From: a bacterium
GTDB lineage: Bacteria > CG2-30-53-67 > CG2-30-70-394
DNA length: 8,795 nt
Assembly (NCBI GenBank): GCA_024278555.1
Contig: JAJRSX010000027.1
Location: 1 to 8,795, forward strand
Direction of reading: 5' to 3'
Below the pieces are notes generated by a model that had not been told where the DNA came from, searched no databases, and worked only from the letters and a program-made list of their open reading frames with translations. A program made the position numbers and the translations under genes. Positions 2,294 to 8,795 of the stretch are shown here, piece after piece; the first letter of the stretch is position 1, and every line of letters starts with the position of its first letter.

Positions 2294-2533
2294 ATGCCAT
2301 CTGCGGTCGTAACCAGCAAAGGACAGATCACCATTCCCAAAGAGGTGAGAGATTCCCTCGGGCTCGAACCCGGGAGTCGACTCACCTTCCGGATGCGTGA
2401 TGATGGTGTCGTCGAAGTGCAACCCGAGACCCTCGACGTATTGTCGTTGTGCGGAATCATCAAGCCCAAGGTCCGCAACGTCACCATCGAGCAGATGAAC
2501 GCGGCCATCCGCAAGGCGGCCACACGCCGATGA
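2294..2533 (+). CDS. vapB: AbrB/MazE/SpoVT-type antitoxin (VapB-like)
   Basis: A 79-residue protein. The first ~45 residues form the swapped-hairpin AbrB fold: AVVTSKGQITIPKEVRDSLGL, then GSRLTFRMRDDGVVEV. This domain binds operator DNA as a dimer. The C-terminal tail (about 48-79, with NVTIEQMNAAIRKA) is the part that in this family folds onto the partner toxin and blocks it. ATG 2294 is chosen because it starts directly at the domain and has AAGGAG (2283-2288) 5 bases upstream; a longer frame from GTG 2249 would run through the promoter. Its stop overlaps the next gene's start by ATGA, so the two are translationally coupled. It probably represses its own promoter through the inverted repeat at 2256-2272. 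Confidence 0.9.
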   Translation: MPSAVVTSKGQITIPKEVRDSLGLEPGSRLTFRMRDDGVVEVQPETLDVLSLCGIIKPKVRNVTIEQMNAAIRKAATRR

Positions 2534-2925
2534 TCGCGCTGGACCCCAACGTCCTCGTCCGCTTCCTGGTCGAGGACGACGCCGCCCAGACGCGGCGTGC
2601 CAAGAGACTCATCCAGAAGACAGAAGCTGCGGGGAGGACCTGTTACGTCTCGGATGTCGTCGTGTGCGAGCTGGTCTGGGTTCTCACCTCCAGCTACCGC
2701 GTCCGCCGTGCAGAGATCGCCGAGGTCCTGCGGAAACTGACCACCTCCCGGCAGATGACCTTCGACGCCACCGATCGCATCACCCGCGCCCTTGATGCAT
2801 TTACCACCGGCCGAGGCGACTTCGCCGACTACCTCCTCCGCGAGCATGCACGCAGAGCCGGCTGCGAAACGGTGGCCACCTTCGACCGCGTGCTCTTGAA
2901 AGAGCATGGCTACACGGCACCCTGA
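2530..2925 (+). CDS. vapC: PIN-domain ribonuclease toxin (VapC-like)
   Basis: A 131-residue single-domain PIN protein, the usual VapC length. The acidic metal-binding residues expected for the fold are present: D5 (MIALD), E47 (VVCELVW), D97/D100 (GDFADYLL) and D119 (ATFDRVL), so it should be an active Mg/Mn-dependent RNase. VapC toxins typically cut tRNA or rRNA; the target here cannot be read from the sequence. ATG 2530 overlaps the antitoxin TGA (ATGA), a classic coupled arrangement. The stop codon (2923-2925) lies inside a perfect 10-bp hairpin (2922-2944) that resembles the one at the end of the FadL gene at 4522-4544. Confidence 0.92.
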   Translation: MIALDPNVLVRFLVEDDAAQTRRAKRLIQKTEAAGRTCYVSDVVVCELVWVLTSSYRVRRAEIAEVLRKLTTSRQMTFDATDRITRALDAFTTGRGDFADYLLREHARRAGCETVATFDRVLLKEHGYTAP

Positions 2926-2944
2926 TTTTGCCGCGCAAAATCAG
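2922..2944 (+). terminator. Hairpin carrying the vapC stop codon
   Basis: CTGATTTTGC (2922-2931), loop CGC, GCAAAATCAG (2935-2944): a perfect 10-bp stem. The TGA of vapC is bases 2-4 of the left arm. It could end or stabilise the message, but there is no U-run. It is a sibling of the 4522-4544 hairpin, with one T-A to C-G pair change, so it may be a dispersed repeat rather than a dedicated terminator. Confidence 0.65.
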
Positions 2945-2950
2945 ATGAGA

Positions 2951-2968
2951 TTGGGGACATACCCCCAA
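2951..2968. repeat. Small inverted repeat after vapC
   Basis: TTGGGG (2951-2956) and CCCCAA (2963-2968) flank a 6-base loop, ACATAC. It lies between the stop-codon hairpin and the truncated REP element. It may be part of either; a separate role is not shown. Confidence 0.4.
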
Positions 2969-2984
2969 CCCCGCCACCACGGTG

Positions 2985-3024
2985 GCAGGAGGGGGTTGCA
3001 CCCCCGACCCCGGCCCCAAGGGCC
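2985..3024 (+). repeat. Truncated REP-like element, copy 2 (left half)
   Basis: GCAGGAG followed by GGGGG-TTGCA-CCCCC and the start of the next hairpin, ending in GGCCCCAAGGGCC at 3024. Up to there it matches copy 1 apart from the T-to-C change in the GTAG foot. The third hairpin and the right arm are missing, so this is a half element between vapBC and the next gene pair. Confidence 0.8.
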
Positions 3025-3062
3025 TACCCTTCGAGGTGTGCCTCTTCGCGCCTGTCGCGCGT

Positions 3063-3090
3063 TTGCCATCCAGACAGGAACCGCTACGCT
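3063..3090 (+). promoter_or_regulatory. Possible promoter of the DUF4258-like/DUF2283 pair
   Basis: TTGCCA (3063-3068), 16-base spacer, TACGCT (3085-3090). The -10 match is weak (TA...T). It ends 6 bases before the ATG at 3097, and no ribosome binding site is at a usable distance, which would fit a leaderless message. Confidence 0.35.
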
Positions 3091-3096
3091 GCCCAC

Positions 3097-3339
3097 ATGG
3101 CCCAGTACCGATTCACCGACTACTTTGAGAAAGAGGTGTTGAGAAAGCGGCCGTACATTCGGAAAGAGTGGTGCATCCGGGTTCTCGATAATCCGCTCAG
3201 GAGCGAACCGCAAGAAAAGAAACGTCTCCGCTTCTGGGGAGCCATCCCCGAGCTCGACGGACGCTTCTTGAGAGTCATTACCCTCGCCGACCGTATCACC
3301 ATCCACAACGCCTTCCCCGACAGGAGGTTCAAACCGTGA
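3097..3339 (+). CDS. Small DUF4258-like protein, candidate toxin partner
   Basis: An 80-residue basic protein. The start resembles small RelE/DUF4258-like folds (YRFTDYFEKEVLRKRPYI at 4-21), and the end has a beta-rich section: RFWGAIPELDGRFLRVITL, ITIHNAF, DRRFKP. I recognise the general pattern (helical N-terminus, then strands with an aromatic/Arg-rich end) but would not swear to the exact family. It overlaps the next gene by GTGA, and such DUF4258-type/DUF2283 neighbours often occur as two-gene units, so a toxin-antitoxin or similar two-component role is plausible and unproven. There is no signal peptide or membrane segment. Good ribosome binding sequence is lacking; see the promoter entry. 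It is flanked by REP-like elements on both sides of the pair. Confidence 0.75.
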   Translation: MAQYRFTDYFEKEVLRKRPYIRKEWCIRVLDNPLRSEPQEKKRLRFWGAIPELDGRFLRVITLADRITIHNAFPDRRFKP

Positions 3340-3554
3340 AGCTGAACTATTACCCGGACACCGATTCGCTCTATATCGACCTCTCGAACAAACCGAGCAG
3401 TGAAACGCGCGAGATTTCCGAGGGCGTCCTCCTCGACTACGATAGCGAAGGAAACTTGGTTGGAATTGATATCGATAACGCAAGCCACAAGGTACAGCTC
3501 AAAGAGTTGACCCTGAGCAGGCTCCCCATCGAGCTCCACAACATCGCAGCCTGA
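3336..3554 (+). CDS. DUF2283 family protein, candidate antitoxin partner
   Basis: A 72-residue protein with the DUF2283 signature: MKLNYYPDTDSLYIDLS, then SETREISEGVLLDYDSEGNLVGIDIDNAS. The family is short, acidic and beta-rich with a final helix; length is normal. The start is GTG 3336 in a GTGA overlap with the upstream stop (3337-3339), supported by AGGAGG at 3322-3327 with an 8-base gap, a stronger ribosome binding site than the first gene has. A higher translation rate of the acidic partner would fit an antitoxin, but that is inference; no DUF2283 function can be read here. The pair is followed by a 32-bp palindrome and REP copy 3, which separate it from the convergent mazF. Confidence 0.88.
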   Translation: MKLNYYPDTDSLYIDLSNKPSSETREISEGVLLDYDSEGNLVGIDIDNASHKVQLKELTLSRLPIELHNIAA

Positions 3555-3591
3555 CGCCACCATCCAGCCAACCCGCCGCACCCTCGCCACC

Positions 3592-3623
3592 CCAACCCCA
3601 ACCCCCGCGGGGGTTGGGGTTGG
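3592..3623. terminator. 32-bp perfect palindrome between convergent genes
   Basis: A perfect inverted repeat centred at 3607/3608. The left arm is CCAACCCCAACCCCCG and the right arm is its reverse complement. It follows the DUF2283 stop by 37 bases and abuts REP copy 3, replacing that copy's GTAGGAGGGGG arm. It may serve as a bidirectional terminator with the adjoining hairpins, though neither strand has a U-run. Confidence 0.5.
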
Positions 3624-3697
3624 TTGCACCCCCGACCCCGGCCCCAAGGGCCGGCCGGCGCCGCGGGCGCCGGATCGCGGGTGCAACCCGCTCCTAC
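3624..3697. repeat. REP-like element, copy 3 (left arm replaced)
   Basis: From TTGCACCCCC onward it is identical to copy 1 through the right-hand CTCCTAC. The left foot (GTAGGAG plus the G run) is missing and a GGGGTTGGGGTTGG run stands in its place. It lies in the gap between the convergent DUF2283 and mazF genes. Confidence 0.85.
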
Positions 3698-3718
3698 CCG
3701 CCATCCCCCGACAGGCTG

Positions 3719-4063
3719 TTAACGGCCAAGTACGACGTCGATGCCGTTCAGGATGAGCTCCAGCTTCTGTGACGATACCCTTCCCACCGGCTTGATCAAC
3801 ACGCCGCGATCCAGTGCCACGACCAGGGAAACATTTGCCACAGAATCTTTTGGGAGGCCCGTACCCCGCGCCCGGAGCAACACATTGCCCGGTGCCTCGG
3901 CCCAGCGGAGGTTGCTGGTCAAGGGTACGCAGACCACCGTCCTGATGCGGCTCCGGTTAAACGGCTCCCCCTGCACCACCACCACCGGCCTCCGAAAACC
4001 GGGAGCCGAACCCACGGGGTCGCCAAGGTCGGCCCACCATACGTCGCCCTGAGAGATCACCAC
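3719..4063 (-). CDS. mazF: MazF/PemK-type endoribonuclease toxin
   Basis: A protein of 114 residues from GTG 4063, the usual MazF size. It begins MVISQGDVWWADLG, the typical first strand of the PemK/MazF SH3-like barrel, followed by GFRRPVVVVQ, VCVPLTSN and GLPKDSVANVS. The conserved Arg in RRPVVVV (R25) and Thr in PLTSN (T49) match the catalytic pair known from MazF, so it should be an active sequence-specific mRNA interferase; the cut site is unknown. Start choice is uncertain: TTG 4069 is the longest, GTG 4063 gives the usual family N-terminus, and GTG 4060 gives a GTGA overlap with the mazE stop. All overlap mazE, so translation is coupled. It faces the DUF2283 gene tail to tail, separated by REP copy 3. 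Confidence 0.92.
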   Translation of the reverse strand: MVISQGDVWWADLGDPVGSAPGFRRPVVVVQGEPFNRSRIRTVVCVPLTSNLRWAEAPGNVLLRARGTGLPKDSVANVSLVVALDRGVLIKPVGRVSSQKLELILNGIDVVLGR

Positions 4064-4293
4064 TCGCAATGTTCCAGAACACGACGCGCGGCTTCGGAGA
4101 CAAATGGGTCCACCTCACCTTCCAATTCTCCGCACAGATGGTCGAGTCTCTCTGTCACGGCGTCGGACGAATGCCGGGCAACGTACTCGCGCAGCGCGCG
4201 ACGATAGAGCTCGCTCCGCGTCACCTTCAGCCGCTTGGCCAAATAATCCGCGCGGGAGAACACATCATCTGGGATGGAGACAGCCGTTTTCAT
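4057..4293 (-). CDS. mazE: Ribbon-helix-helix antitoxin (MazE-like)
   Basis: A 78-residue protein. Residues 1-45 form a ribbon-helix-helix domain: MKTAVSIPDDVFSRADYLAKRL, then KVTRSELYRRALREYV. The acidic C-terminal part (about 50-78, with LDHLCGELEGEVDPF and RRVLEHCEW) is expected to wrap the MazF dimer. ATG 4293 is chosen because it begins exactly at the first strand; a longer frame up to 4356 would run through the promoter. There is no ribosome binding site before it, but TATACT lies 6 bases upstream, suggesting a leaderless message. The stop (4059-4057) overlaps the mazF start region. RHH antitoxins normally repress their own promoter. A CopG-type label would be equally fair; the pairing with MazF gives the name. 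Confidence 0.88.
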   Translation of the reverse strand: MKTAVSIPDDVFSRADYLAKRLKVTRSELYRRALREYVARHSSDAVTERLDHLCGELEGEVDPFVSEAARRVLEHCEW

Positions 4294-4329: not shown

Positions 4330-4383
4330 CCTTCCCGTACGTGCATATATCCCCACGGCACCCCCACCCCCCGCCCCGCGGTG

Positions 4384-4467
4384 GTAGGAGGGGGTTGCAC
4401 CCCCGACCCCGGCCCCAAGGGCCGGCCGGCGCCGCGGCGCCGGATCGCGGGTACAACCCGCTCCTAC
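4384..4467. repeat. Complete REP-like doublet, copy 4
   Basis: Same order of four hairpins and GTAGGAG/CTCCTAC feet as copy 1. It differs by one base less in the third hairpin, which becomes a perfect 18-base palindrome with its stem kept, and by TACAA instead of TGCAA in the last loop. It lies between the mazEF promoter and the terminator of the outer-membrane protein gene. Confidence 0.87.
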
Positions 4468-4483
4468 CTACCCCACAAAACAA

Positions 4484-4521: not shown

Positions 4522-4544
4522 CTGATTTCGCGCAGCGAAATCAG
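4522..4544 (-). repeat. Hairpin carrying the FadL-type gene stop codon
   Basis: On the minus strand CTGATTTCGC, loop TGC, GCGAAATCAG: a perfect 10-bp stem. The TGA stop (4543-4541) is bases 2-4 of the first arm, the same place as in the vapC hairpin at 2922-2944. Both continue with AT after the second arm. The one changed stem position is compensated (T-A to C-G). Confidence 0.7.
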
Positions 4545-7500
4545 AACAGCAGGGAATACTGCACATGCACCGTATCCTGATTGGCCGACTCCTTCGAATC
4601 GCTGTACTGGCTGTTGGCGAGGTTGGTATCGCTGAACAGGGTGGTGGTAAAGGCGCGCTCCAGGGCCACGGAGAGCTCCTTGTTGTTCCACCGGTAGCTA
4701 CACCCGACTGACCCCGTCTGGAAACCGAAGGCAGGCAGCACGCCCATATTGTTGTTGCCATCCATCGCCGACTTGGCCTTGCCAAAGTCATTCCACAGGT
4801 CGTTGAAACGGCGGCCGGTGAACGAGTACCCCGCCATGACGGTAAAGTTGTCGAGGAGGTCGTAGGCACCACCGAAATTGAAGACCCACTGGTCGTGCCA
4901 GCTGAGATCCTCCTTGAAGGTGAAAGAGTTGGCGTCGCCAAAGCCCGAACCGTTGAAGCCCAAGAAGCGCTGGAAGACCGGGTTGTCCGGGTTGCGCAGG
5001 TTGGCGGCAAACTGCTGCATCGAGGAGGAGTAATCGGCCCACTTCACGTCCGTGGTGAGACGCAGCCCCTTCATCGGCCGAATCTCAACACCAAGCTCCG
5101 CCTGCTGCGGCAGCTCGATGGTGATATCGGTACGGAAGTCCCCCACCACGTTGAACTGGCCGCGCAGACTATCGTACGCGGCGAGGAACTCCTCAGGAGT
5201 GGCGTAGTTCGCCGGGTCGAGGAGGGTCTGGACCTGGCTCACCGCGAGTGCCTGGGTCGCCGCGTCGTCGGGGTCGGCGATGGACGCCACGCCGAAACCG
5301 CGCAGGAAGCGGGCGATGTCTCGGTAGTAATCGACCACCTCCTGGTCATCCGTGGTCCGTACGATCGAGCCTGTGCCGTTGTGGAAGGTCCTCGCGGTGG
5401 CGTCGATGCCGAGGGTAGCGGTGTTGTTCGTCGAGTCGTTGAGCCGCTTCGGGATCTTGTAGTTGGGCTGGCTGGTGACGTTCTGGAACTCCTGGTTGTC
5501 CACATACCCCATGAGGGAGGCAAAGGTGCGGAAGAGGCCGGCACCGGCACGGGTAAGCATCTCCACCGAGTAGGCGTCGTCGCCGGTAAAGTTGTCCTCC
5601 GGACGGCCAGAGGAGCCGGAAAGGATCAGGTCGAGCTGCCGGTTGGTGGGAATGGCCCGGTCCGATCCGGACACGCTCGGATCACCCGGCCCGTGGCTCG
5701 CGTCACCGAAAGAGGGCGCCTCACTGAGCAGCCGATCGACGTCCCCGAGCTTGGGCAATTCATTGAATATCTGCTGCGAGCTGGTCAGCGCCGGGTCCGA
5801 GCCGGGCGCCACCGAGAAGTCGACGTTGGTGATCGTCGGATCGGTGGCGACACCGTCCGCGACCGTGTCGATGAACTCGGCGAACTGGGTCATCCCCAGC
5901 TCATCGAAGATCGTCTGCATCGCGAGGAAGGAGCGCATCCCCACGTCCAGCCCCTGCTGGATCTGATCGGTGAAGTCAAAACGCAGGCCACCGTCGCGCA
6001 TGATGATGCTGGACTTCGAGGTATAGCTGCCGCCCACGGTAAGCCAGTCGTTCAACCGCCAAGTGGCACCCACCTTCACCGCGTTGGCGAAGTCCTCGAA
6101 GCCACGCCCGGAGGCGTAGCCGGTCACCTCCCCCATACCAAAACCGAAGTCCGGGAAGACGTCCTGAAAGAGGCCGTAGAACTCATCGATGATGTAGTCG
6201 TGCTCTTTGTCGGTGAACTGGCTGGAGTCGTAGAACGACTGCGCCATGAGGCTCCGGGTGAGGTTGTTCAGGGCCGAGTTGATGTCCTGATGGTCGAGGA
6301 GCTGCCCGGTCGCCTGACCTCGCTGCTCGCCGGTGGTGGCGTCATCCAACAGGGAGAACTCCCAGATCCGCTTGCGAAAAAACGCCGGCGTGGTGGTGGC
6401 ATCCTCGCCCGCGGTCGGCTGGTGAAAGAAGTCGGCAATCCGCTGCACCCCGTCCACCGGCAGCTCCACCACATTGCCGTGGGCGTCATAGGCGACCATC
6501 ACCTGGTCGTCGGCCGCCGAGGTCGGCCCCTGACGATCCAGGATGAACTGCGGAAAGGGACGGCCTGCGAAGAGCTGGCCATGGCTCGGGAAGCCCTGGG
6601 CGGTGTTCTGCGCGACTGACTTCTCGTGCGCCGTCAGGTGGTCCTGGGCCGCCAGGTAGCTCTCATCGAGGAACCGCTCGAACGCCTTCCCCTGGGCCAC
6701 CGTGTCGTTGCGGTCGAAGCGCGGCGCCAGATCGGCGAGCTGGGTATCGGTGAGCGCCCCACTGCCGCTGACCCCAAGGGCAATCTTCGCCTCGGTGCGG
6801 GTGATGATCCCGTCCTCGGTAGCCGGATTGAACGCCCGACTCCCCCTGGCGACGATCCCGTCAATTCCCAGCTCATCCGTCCCCACATCGGAGTTCGAGC
6901 TACCCACGTGGCGCGCCGCCACACCGCGCGGCGCCATCTCGGTGGAGCCGTAGATCCCAAACTTCAGGAAGCCGTAATCCTGCAGCGGCTCCACGGCGAC
7001 CGTCAGATCGTCGGTGATGTCGAAGGAGAGGGCGAGGCCGAAGCGGCCGATGATCATCAACGTGTAGTTATCGCGGCGCAGGGCGTTCTTGGCCGTCAGG
7101 TCGCGACTACCCAGCAGGTCGGAACCCTCGGCCATGAAGTGGGCCCGGCCGCCGCCCAACTGCACCGGGGTGGTGTCGTTGAAGCCCCAGTCCTGGACCG
7201 CAAAACCGCCGCCGCCTTTACCCCACATCCCGAAGCCAACCCCCACCCGCCCCGTCTTGTAGACGATCCCCACGGTGGGAAGGAAGAAGAGGGTCGACTC
7301 GTTGATCTCGAAGCGGCCGTGGGCATCACGGTTCACCGACGTGGCGAGGTCCGAGTTGTGGTCGGTGTAGCTGCCGTTGAAGATCAGCGCCCCAACGTCG
7401 AGATCGATGCGCCAGCCGTCGCCCATCTTGCCGACGTTCGCCGGATTGACCGCCAGGGTGGTGGCGTCGTCGCCGGCGGCGTTCGCCGCCCCGCCCATCG

Positions 7501-7606
7501 CCGCCATCTTGGCGCCGAAACCGGTGGGGAAGAGAGTGGTCGTCGCCTCTGCCGGCCGCGGCAGGCAGAGGGCGAGGAGGAGCAGGCTTCCGAGCAGTGC
7601 GCGCAT
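4541..7606 (-). CDS. FadL/OmpP1-family outer membrane transport protein, unusually long
   Basis: From ATG 7606 the protein has 1021 residues. The N-terminus MRALLGSLLLLALCLPRPAEA is a signal peptide with likely cleavage after AEA (21). Next comes the FadL hatch-like start FPTGFGAKMAAMGGAANA and DATTLAVNPA (26-56). Barrel-type strand sections follow: VGATWRLNDWLTVGGSYTS (512-530), ITIELPQQAELGVEIRP (828-844), LRLTTDVKWADYS (848-860) and the C-terminal HVQYSLLF ending in Phe, the usual BAM recognition end. FadL proteins import long-chain fatty acids or other hydrophobics; the substrate here is unknown. Family members are about 400-500 residues; the excess comes from two insertions of about 280 residues (roughly 223-505 and 548-825). 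GGGAG at 7618-7614, 7 bases before the ATG, supports separate initiation. It ends in a hairpin and a strong terminator. Confidence 0.85.
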   Translation of the reverse strand: MRALLGSLLLLALCLPRPAEATTTLFPTGFGAKMAAMGGAANAAGDDATTLAVNPANVGKMGDGWRIDLDVGALIFNGSYTDHNSDLATSVNRDAHGRFEINESTLFFLPTVGIVYKTGRVGVGFGMWGKGGGGFAVQDWGFNDTTPVQLGGGRAHFMAEGSDLLGSRDLTAKNALRRDNYTLMIIGRFGLALSFDITDDLTVAVEPLQDYGFLKFGIYGSTEMAPRGVAARHVGSSNSDVGTDELGIDGIVARGSRAFNPATEDGIITRTEAKIALGVSGSGALTDTQLADLAPRFDRNDTVAQGKAFERFLDESYLAAQDHLTAHEKSVAQNTAQGFPSHGQLFAGRPFPQFILDRQGPTSAADDQVMVAYDAHGNVVELPVDGVQRIADFFHQPTAGEDATTTPAFFRKRIWEFSLLDDATTGEQRGQATGQLLDHQDINSALNNLTRSLMAQSFYDSSQFTDKEHDYIIDEFYGLFQDVFPDFGFGMGEVTGYASGRGFEDFANAVKVGATWRLNDWLTVGGSYTSKSSIIMRDGGLRFDFTDQIQQGLDVGMRSFLAMQTIFDELGMTQFAEFIDTVADGVATDPTITNVDFSVAPGSDPALTSSQQIFNELPKLGDVDRLLSEAPSFGDASHGPGDPSVSGSDRAIPTNRQLDLILSGSSGRPEDNFTGDDAYSVEMLTRAGAGLFRTFASLMGYVDNQEFQNVTSQPNYKIPKRLNDSTNNTATLGIDATARTFHNGTGSIVRTTDDQEVVDYYRDIARFLRGFGVASIADPDDAATQALAVSQVQTLLDPANYATPEEFLAAYDSLRGQFNVVGDFRTDITIELPQQAELGVEIRPMKGLRLTTDVKWADYSSSMQQFAANLRNPDNPVFQRFLGFNGSGFGDANSFTFKEDLSWHDQWVFNFGGAYDLLDNFTVMAGYSFTGRRFNDLWNDFGKAKSAMDGNNNMGVLPAFGFQTGSVGCSYRWNNKELSVALERAFTTTLFSDTNLANSQYSDSKESANQDTVHVQYSLLF

Positions 7607-8795
7607 CCAGCGTCTCCCATTGCGAAGGGTTGCCAGGACCCCGAGGGGCAGGAGGAGCAACACGAGCGCCGCCCAGCCCACGTGTCCTGACGGATCACGC
7701 GTGGCCACACAGCCACCCACCGCGTCCTTGGCGTTGCGGTTCACCGTGGAGAAGAGGCCACGGTCACTCAGGCCGCCGCCCTCACCCGGCACCGCCTCGG
7801 GCACCGTCGGGTTGGCGTCGAGGTTGTCAGCGATCCCGTCACCATCCTTGTCGCCCACGGTTACCGTAAAGTCCGAGAAGTGGCTCGTACGCACGGTGAT
7901 CGTGTTCGCCTCCGTGTCGCGCGCGGCGATGCAGTCACGCTCCCTGTCCGCCACATCCACCGTCCCGTCACCATTGCGGTCCACCGTATCGTCGCAGGCC
8001 CCGAAGGTGGTCTCCGTCCCATCCGCCTCGGTGCGCACCACCTGGAAGAGCTCCTCGGCAACGCCACCCGGCGGCACGTCCGCCTGCGGATAGACCAGGG
8101 TCACCTCCACGAACGGATCAAAGGTCGCCCCCTCAGGGGTCATGCGGACCGGCTGACCGACGATCGTCGTCTCCAGGGCCCCGTCGCCGACCGCGATGGA
8201 GCGGCGCTCTCCGGCCGAGCCATCGGCCGCGGCCATTCCCAAGTTCACGGTGGTATCCGGCTCACCATCACCGTCCGCATCCGCGGTGGTAGTCGTACCG
8301 GTAGGCACCACCACCTTGGTCCCCTTGATCTTCGCGGCCCGCTCCGCCGCCTCACGTGCGGCGGTGGCGGCCGCGGCCGCGGCGGCCTTGTCCGGGTCGT
8401 CCGCGGCCAAGGCGGCGGCCGTGCTCTCCAGAGAGGTAGCGGCCGCCTCGAGCTGGCTCACGCGGCTGTCGTCCACCGCCACCGTGGCGCCGTTGGCGAG
8501 CACCACCACGGTGCCCACCGCCGGGGTATCCGTAGTGGGTGCCACCGGCTCCCCGGTCACCGGATCGCGCGGCGTGATGTCATCGACCCCGTCGCCGTTC
8601 ACATCCACCTGCACAAAGGCGTTGGTGTCATCCGCATCCAACGCCACGGGGATACCGTCGCCGTCCGCGTCCACCGGCGCGCTCGCGTCCAGGGGCGCCG
8701 AATCCAGCACGTCGATAATCCCGTCGCCGTCATCGTCCGTGTCCGCGTTGTTGCCGGTACCGTCGCCGTCCGTGTCCACCGTCTCCGCCGCATCG
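4541..8795 (-). CDS. Composite open frame: Ca-repeat surface protein joined to FadL-family protein, 5' partial
   Basis: One reading frame with no stop runs from the window edge (first full codon at 8794) to TGA 4543-4541, 1417 codons. It reads as two proteins in tandem. Residues 1-396 hold thrombospondin type 3-like Asp/Gly repeats, an Ala-rich helix, a beta-sandwich domain, and a C-terminal Gly-Gly-Cys, hydrophobic, Arg-rich sorting-type tail. Directly after Trp 396 comes Met 397, which starts a complete signal peptide and a FadL-type barrel. A signal peptide in the middle of a chain and a C-terminal anchor before it are not expected in one polypeptide. Options are a real fusion later cleaved, a lost stop codon (TGG to TGA is one base), or an assembly error. 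See the two part entries for details. The true N-terminus lies outside the window. Confidence 0.75.
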   Translation of the reverse strand, partial: DAAETVDTDGDGTGNNADTDDDGDGIIDVLDSAPLDASAPVDADGDGIPVALDADDTNAFVQVDVNGDGVDDITPRDPVTGEPVAPTTDTPAVGTVVVLANGATVAVDDSRVSQLEAAATSLESTAAALAADDPDKAAAAAAATAAREAAERAAKIKGTKVVVPTGTTTTADADGDGEPDTTVNLGMAAADGSAGERRSIAVGDGALETTIVGQPVRMTPEGATFDPFVEVTLVYPQADVPPGGVAEELFQVVRTEADGTETTFGACDDTVDRNGDGTVDVADRERDCIAARDTEANTITVRTSHFSDFTVTVGDKDGDGIADNLDANPTVPEAVPGEGGGLSDRGLFSTVNRNAKDAVGGCVATRDPSGHVGWAALVLLLLPLGVLATLRNGRRWMRALLGSLLLLALCLPRPAEATTTLFPTGFGAKMAAMGGAANAAGDDATTLAVNPANVGKMGDGWRIDLDVGALIFNGSYTDHNSDLATSVNRDAHGRFEINESTLFFLPTVGIVYKTGRVGVGFGMWGKGGGGFAVQDWGFNDTTPVQLGGGRAHFMAEGSDLLGSRDLTAKNALRRDNYTLMIIGRFGLALSFDITDDLTVAVEPLQDYGFLKFGIYGSTEMAPRGVAARHVGSSNSDVGTDELGIDGIVARGSRAFNPATEDGIITRTEAKIALGVSGSGALTDTQLADLAPRFDRNDTVAQGKAFERFLDESYLAAQDHLTAHEKSVAQNTAQGFPSHGQLFAGRPFPQFILDRQGPTSAADDQVMVAYDAHGNVVELPVDGVQRIADFFHQPTAGEDATTTPAFFRKRIWEFSLLDDATTGEQRGQATGQLLDHQDINSALNNLTRSLMAQSFYDSSQFTDKEHDYIIDEFYGLFQDVFPDFGFGMGEVTGYASGRGFEDFANAVKVGATWRLNDWLTVGGSYTSKSSIIMRDGGLRFDFTDQIQQGLDVGMRSFLAMQTIFDELGMTQFAEFIDTVADGVATDPTITNVDFSVAPGSDPALTSSQQIFNELPKLGDVDRLLSEAPSFGDASHGPGDPSVSGSDRAIPTNRQLDLILSGSSGRPEDNFTGDDAYSVEMLTRAGAGLFRTFASLMGYVDNQEFQNVTSQPNYKIPKRLNDSTNNTATLGIDATARTFHNGTGSIVRTTDDQEVVDYYRDIARFLRGFGVASIADPDDAATQALAVSQVQTLLDPANYATPEEFLAAYDSLRGQFNVVGDFRTDITIELPQQAELGVEIRPMKGLRLTTDVKWADYSSSMQQFAANLRNPDNPVFQRFLGFNGSGFGDANSFTFKEDLSWHDQWVFNFGGAYDLLDNFTVMAGYSFTGRRFNDLWNDFGKAKSAMDGNNNMGVLPAFGFQTGSVGCSYRWNNKELSVALERAFTTTLFSDTNLANSQYSDSKESANQDTVHVQYSLLF
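7607..8795 (-). CDS. Surface protein with thrombospondin type 3-like repeats and C-terminal sorting signal (5' partial, no stop of its own)
   Basis: 396 visible residues counted from the codon at 8794. Residues 1-75 contain Ca-binding Asp/Gly repeats (TDGDGTGNNADTDDDGDG, VDADGDGIPVALDADD, VDVNGDGVDDI). Residues 108-156 are an Ala-rich helical stretch. About 195-312 form a beta-sandwich that starts AVGDGALETTI and ends with the HFSDFTV strand seen at the end of ZU5-like/anchor domains. Within it, two Cys (267, 288) bracket an EF-hand-type loop DRNGDGTVDVAD. Another Ca motif, DKDGDGIADN, follows. The tail has GGC (360-362), a hydrophobic segment (about 372-389) and RNGRR (391-395), the tripartite layout of Gly/Cys-type CTERM sorting signals; I cannot name the subtype. 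It is probably exported and processed at the cell envelope. No stop separates it from the FadL-type frame. Confidence 0.75.
7614..7618 (-). promoter_or_regulatory. Ribosome binding site for the FadL-type protein
   Basis: GGGAG on the minus strand, 7 bases before ATG 7606. It decides the start of the FadL-type protein inside an otherwise continuous frame, because optimal spacing plus an immediate signal peptide is unlikely by chance. Confidence 0.7.

Follow-up and report, generated by a model that had tools for sequence, protein, structure and literature searches.

How does a single reading frame come to encode two proteins that each look complete? In the window, by which we mean the whole 8,795-nucleotide stretch of DNA that was analyzed, from an uncultured bacterium, an open frame of 1417 amino acids runs on the minus strand from position 8794 at the contig end, where its 5′ end is cut, to a TGA at 4541-4543. 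The original prediction described two modules joined by a TGG codon, with an ATG directly behind it and a GGGAG ahead of it, and offered three options: a lost stop codon, a wrong base, or a polyprotein. The TGG (7609-7607), the ATG (7606-7604), and the GGGAG (7618-7614) were all confirmed on the minus strand at the positions first given. The frame and its junction comprise the following features.

7610-8794, minus strand: upstream module, a surface-type protein of 395 amino acids (open reading frame; 5′ end missing at the contig end)
About 8570-8785, minus strand: acidic DxDGDG (TSP3-like) repeats in the upstream module (weak MtsC-type TSP3 match)
7610-7720, minus strand: sorting tail VGGCVATRDPSGHVGWAALVLLLLPLGVLATLRNGRR, with a Cys signature, a hydrophobic segment (about 7625-7681), and a basic cluster
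7607-7609, minus strand: TGG codon between the modules, no stop
7614-7618, minus strand: GGGAG, possible Shine-Dalgarno sequence, its GGAG 7 nt 5′ of the ATG (-7.3 kcal/mol)
7544-7606, minus strand: barrel signal peptide MRALLGSLLLLALCLPRPAEA, predicted cut after AEA, aligned with the signal peptides of standalone paralogs
4541-7543, minus strand: mature FadL/OmpP1-type outer-membrane barrel, ending at the TGA (PF03349 and an 85% identical partial ortholog)

Beyond the tail and the TGG, the frame continues for 1021 amino acids, and the order along the junction is the hydrophobic peak of the tail (2.34, KD, 19 aa), the basic cluster, a second hydrophobic segment, and AEA. The barrel matches PF03349 (FadL/OmpP1/TodX) with an E value of 1.6e-12 and 47.1 bits, above the gathering cut-off of 29.7, and its best stretch lies at about 4673-5134. 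The fold of this family is a barrel with an N-terminal hatch; an AlphaFold model of the window barrel, built on a two-row alignment, had a mean pLDDT of 29.7 and was discarded. The upstream module reached 9.2 bits with the MtsC-type TSP3 model, far below the cut-off. MYXO-CTERM tails are defined by a Cys signature, a hydrophobic helix, and an Arg-rich end (PMC11980579), and the window tail has this tripartite layout in VGGC, WAALVLLLLPLGVLATL, and RNGRR. It scores below the cut-off of 20 of the MYXO-CTERM model TIGR03901 (12.8 bits for the tail alone and 10.2 in the genome search), it departs from the MYXO-CTERM position at the extreme C-terminus in that the frame continues past it, and it is absent from the matches to the GlyGly-CTERM model TIGR03501 up to an E value of 3. 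As it falls below both cut-offs, the tail is assigned to neither family. It aligns with the tails encoded on contigs C6, C189, and C207 of the same genome and on contig C68 of G002, a member of the same class. The C189 tail (GGSGGGGCETVPNGGAAAAWPMLLPLALLPILRRWSSGAR) belongs to a 486-aa frame (stretch L190, 2843-4303 in reverse-complement coordinates) and comes near the MYXO-CTERM cut-off, with 18.3 bits against 20, in a genome in which no MrtX was found.

The two-module make-up proved to be the strong part of the original prediction, as the signal peptide lies exactly where the paralogs begin. A standalone barrel paralog in the same genome (C80), another in G001 (C144), and the homolog on G002:C68 all start at the matching Met and carry their own signal peptides. 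On G002:C68, a protein of 704 aa combines a choice-of-anchor U domain with a Cys tail that stops after RKRLNK; about 470 nt further on, a FadL-type gene begins at a start codon of its own. The order is that of the window, and the genes are separate. Because the paralogs begin at the matching Met and G002 keeps separate genes in the same order, these sequence comparisons support the view that the window modules were once two genes. By BLASTP, the similarity of the upstream module to the G002 tail protein is limited to the DxDGDG repeats, and we therefore read G002:C68 as a parallel arrangement, orthology of the locus not being proven. The FadL-type gene of G002 (stretch L040, 2583-3316) is itself disrupted about 110 codons in, where the frame shifts, close to a contig end. 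The sister species G001 (MNYW01, ‘Nitrospirae bacterium CG2_30_70_394’) has an ortholog of the window barrel that is 85% identical and partial. A search of the G001 DNA and of the genome contigs returned this ortholog, on MNYW01000178.1, as the sole one; its contig starts at barrel residue 607, and the search of the G001 DNA found no junction. Another neighboring pair of sorting tail and barrel was seen on G036:C44 (stretch L120), where a 1755-aa ORF with what we take to be a T9SS-type tail lies directly 5′ of a presumably PorV-like barrel.

The window is one of three places in its genome where a sorting tail, a signal peptide, and a barrel are joined in one frame. The second, on contig C110 with its junction at 9428-9560, was met during a check of rhomboid proteases. 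There, a frame of 2859 aa encodes transglutaminase-like, FixG_C-like, and PKD domains and passes through a GG tail, GGSGGIGGVELLLLLAWLVWRRR, and a signal peptide region, LRTAALVLLLVLPHPAAA, into an OmpA-type barrel (PF01389, 2.5e-14; PF13505, 1.1e-13). TIGR03501 did not detect this tail. The only starts at the junction are a GTG, with -2.6 kcal/mol of pairing, and a CTG, neither of them a plausible separate start; with no usable start in the sequence, production of this barrel is expected to go through the fused frame. Its stop overlaps by 4 nt (ATGA) the start of another gene.

L153 (G000:C110), 10114-10758, plus strand: rhombosortase gene (TIGR03902, 148 bits, cut-off 84)

None of the seven class relatives examined gave a rhombosortase match, and the rhombosortase loci of G163, G152, and G289 contain no fusion. 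The third fusion, on contig C6 with its junction at 16690-16819, leads from a beta-propeller/DUF11 protein through a GC tail, GNGCQAVPGAAGGSLFDLAFLLLPLGVAVVARRR, and GWLAIALVILLGASGARA into a barrel whose match to the TraB model NF033763 is limited to the N-terminal region (residues 5-281, E 1.1e-15), its 56.6 bits being far under the equivalog cut-off of 700. Plasmid and PDB searches with this barrel gave no match. An internal GTG at the C6 junction pairs at -11.6 kcal/mol, and the beta-propeller of the passenger contains an in-frame TAG (GCA TAG CGT; stretch L235, minus strand, 17747-17749), which may represent decay, an assembly error, or something else.

These cases were placed in context by a scan for two hydrophobic segments separated by a basic cluster and followed by AxA, flanked by no fewer than 90 aa on the near side and 130 aa on the far side. 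Stricter earlier patterns had returned nothing, then the window alone, and the pattern was loosened until it caught C110; in this form it matched only these two loci in 456,714 open-frame residues. Having thus been set on the window and C110 beforehand, it was run, with the hydrophobicity threshold slightly reduced, on 40 more stretches chosen blind and found the C6 fusion, the only match independent of pattern tuning. The only other matches (L243 and L299), which we take to be FtsW/RodA-like, were rejected as polytopic proteins lacking a sorting tail. Altogether, sampling covered about 0.96 Mb, roughly a third, of a genome of 3.06 Mb. This part holds five GG/GC tails, three of them fused and two with a normal stop (C189 and C207), as well as four PEP-CTERM tails, all of which end in stops. 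The 0.39 Mb sampled in G001 contained no fusion of this layout. The three barrels show no clear mutual similarity and neither do the three passengers, so the fusions are not copies of one event; a basic cluster between two hydrophobic segments is common to all three.

Since the same join of tail, signal peptide, and barrel occurs at two further, unrelated loci in the genome, the polyprotein option is now favored among the three put forward at the outset, and the lost stop and the wrong base are weakened. We consider it probable that the window frame is a real gene fusion encoding a polyprotein that is cut twice, favored here as a recurrent layout. The wider proposal, to which we give an even chance, is that an internal hairpin of sorting tail and signal peptide arose independently for at least three barrel families in one lineage and releases surface protein and barrel at 1:1. 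The overlap of the C110 rhombosortase with the barrel stop counts in favor of the polyprotein. Several observations count against it: the window retains its ATG with a moderate Shine-Dalgarno sequence, as a recent stop loss predicts; C6 contains the in-frame TAG; the GGC tails of C189 and C207 end in normal stops; G001 yielded no fusion in its 0.39 Mb; and published GlyGly-CTERM tails lie at the extreme C-terminus (PMC3237569).

In the proposed pathway, the surface protein would be exported by Sec, presumably with a signal peptide of its own, and its C-terminal-type tail would lead, by way of a short basic hinge (RNGRRWMR), into the barrel signal peptide. The tail helix would span the inner membrane from outside to inside, the hinge would be kept in the cytoplasm, and the barrel signal peptide would cross back from inside to outside. 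This topology would work unchanged, because the basic cluster sits between the two hydrophobic segments. An intramembrane protease of the sorting type could then cut near GGC to free the surface protein, and a cut by signal peptidase I after AEA would free the barrel; a two-helix hairpin would remain in the inner membrane. The outcome would be two proteins at a fixed ratio, possibly partners, as with a traA-traB-like operon. Processing is expected on general grounds, as a barrel behind two inner-membrane helices is unlikely to reach the outer membrane. Candidate tail proteases in the genome are the rhombosortase and one further rhomboid, encoded on C110 and C155 respectively, and a CPBP protease of the PEP-CTERM type, any of which might act on the window tail. 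No MrtX/MrtC myxosortase was found in the genome, where the one CPBP-family protein detected belongs to TIGR03008 (PEP-CTERM associated) and scores below cut-off with MrtJ and Mrt_core.

The most serious competitor to a doubly cut polyprotein is that two ordinary adjacent genes appear fused because a wrong or extra assembly base, or a private recent mutation of the strain, removed the stop. The window ATG aligns with the starts of the standalone paralogs and still has its Shine-Dalgarno sequence, G002 has the same order as two genes, and three gene pairs of the window, at 2294-4293, stop and start within a 4-nt overlap. Overlaps of -1 of the TGATG type are common (PMC10666635), so one base added or altered would be enough to make the window fusion. 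The suspicious TAG in C6 further indicates that single-base errors or decay occur in this assembly. That the TGG is one substitution from a stop, as was first argued, is true and weak as an argument, as the same holds for 16% of the codons of the window ORF. However, the 4.2-kb frame is otherwise intact, as are the other genes of the window, and the genome holds two further fusions built alike, one without an independent start. With three unrelated pairs of barrel and passenger joined alike, a private sequencing error at the window junction is unlikely, and we give the adjacent-gene explanation as a whole only a minor share of the probability, roughly that of a one-in-several chance.

It is also possible, with a lower probability that we would call slight, that the fusion is real and that the barrel is made mainly by separate initiation at an internal start, the ATG at 7606 in the window and the GTG in C6, with the read-through product minor. 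The window GGAG, 7 nt before the ATG, and the C6 GTG, by its pairing energy, are in keeping with such initiation. The GGGAG had been called well placed, and its placement stands; the pairing is moderate, is equaled or beaten at 10 of the 171 ATGs of the window, and is weak evidence alone. The three standalone barrel genes pair more strongly, at -11.2 to -11.4 kcal/mol. Moreover, ribosomes on the upstream frame, meeting no stop, would run through the start site, and the C110 junction has no usable start. That the product remains uncut as a single envelope-spanning protein is very improbable: the open frame is indeed single, but the signal peptide and its AEA site match those of the standalone paralogs and would be expected to be cut, FadL-type barrels are outer-membrane residents, with which an uncut inner-membrane hairpin is incompatible, and we know of no such barrel that inserts into the outer membrane from behind inner-membrane helices. 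Stop-codon recoding was rejected, with TGA ending the barrel and neighboring genes and TAG ending C6.

Among known systems, the nearest arrangement is traA-traB of Myxococcus. In M. xanthus, the genes for TraA, a MYXO-CTERM tail protein, and TraB, of the OmpA type, overlap by 4 bases, and the proteins act together (PMC3325183). Both arrangements place a tail-bearing surface protein before an outer-membrane partner on one message, and the TraB match of the C6 barrel, in its N-terminal region, is a further point in common. However, the genes are separate in Myxococcus whereas the frames are fused here, and the window barrel is of the FadL type, not TraB, as its passenger is not TraA. By this analogy, the fusions look like pairs of the traA-traB type merged in one frame. 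In GlyGly-CTERM systems, a dedicated target and its rhombosortase are often encoded by adjacent genes, and the tail stands at the extreme C-terminus, where it is the first transmembrane segment after the signal peptide (PMC3237569). C110 shares the GG tail and the translationally overlapping rhombosortase gene downstream, but its tail is internal and followed by a signal peptide and a barrel; the window tail has GGC instead of a glycine/serine stretch, and no protease gene adjoins it. Autotransporters (type V secretion) likewise encode a surface passenger and an outer-membrane barrel in one ORF, whereas the two parts are separated here by a tail in the inner membrane and by another signal peptide, so the barrel cannot thread its passenger co-linearly. 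FbcH (cytochrome b/c1) of Bradyrhizobium is a bacterial polyprotein cut at an internal signal sequence and resembles the window in its single frame, its two membrane-linked products, and its internal signal peptide; it differs in having no sorting tail, and its products remain in the inner membrane. Literature searches found no description of the present architecture, which is weak evidence of novelty.

So far, the definition, the searches, and the annotation of sorting tails have all placed them at the very end of a protein. Should they also occur internally, 5′ of a signal peptide, proteins built in this way would be overlooked or misinterpreted by present searches and gene callers. The barrel partners of surface-anchored proteins could then be read straight from fusions, and bacteria would have a route to fixed ratio and co-delivery by processing rather than by translational coupling.

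Elsewhere in the window, a GC-rich repeat (GGTAGGAGGGGGTTGCACCCCCGACCCCGGCCCCAAGGGCC...) occurs in four intergenic copies, at 2119-2223, 2961-3024, 3594-3698, and 4365-4469. The window also carries a row of toxin-antitoxin-like pairs, preceded by a DUF4143 ATPase: MazE-type/PIN at 2294-2925, an unassigned small ORF with DUF2283 at 3097-3554, and RHH/PemK at 3719-4293, each pair with a short stop-start overlap.
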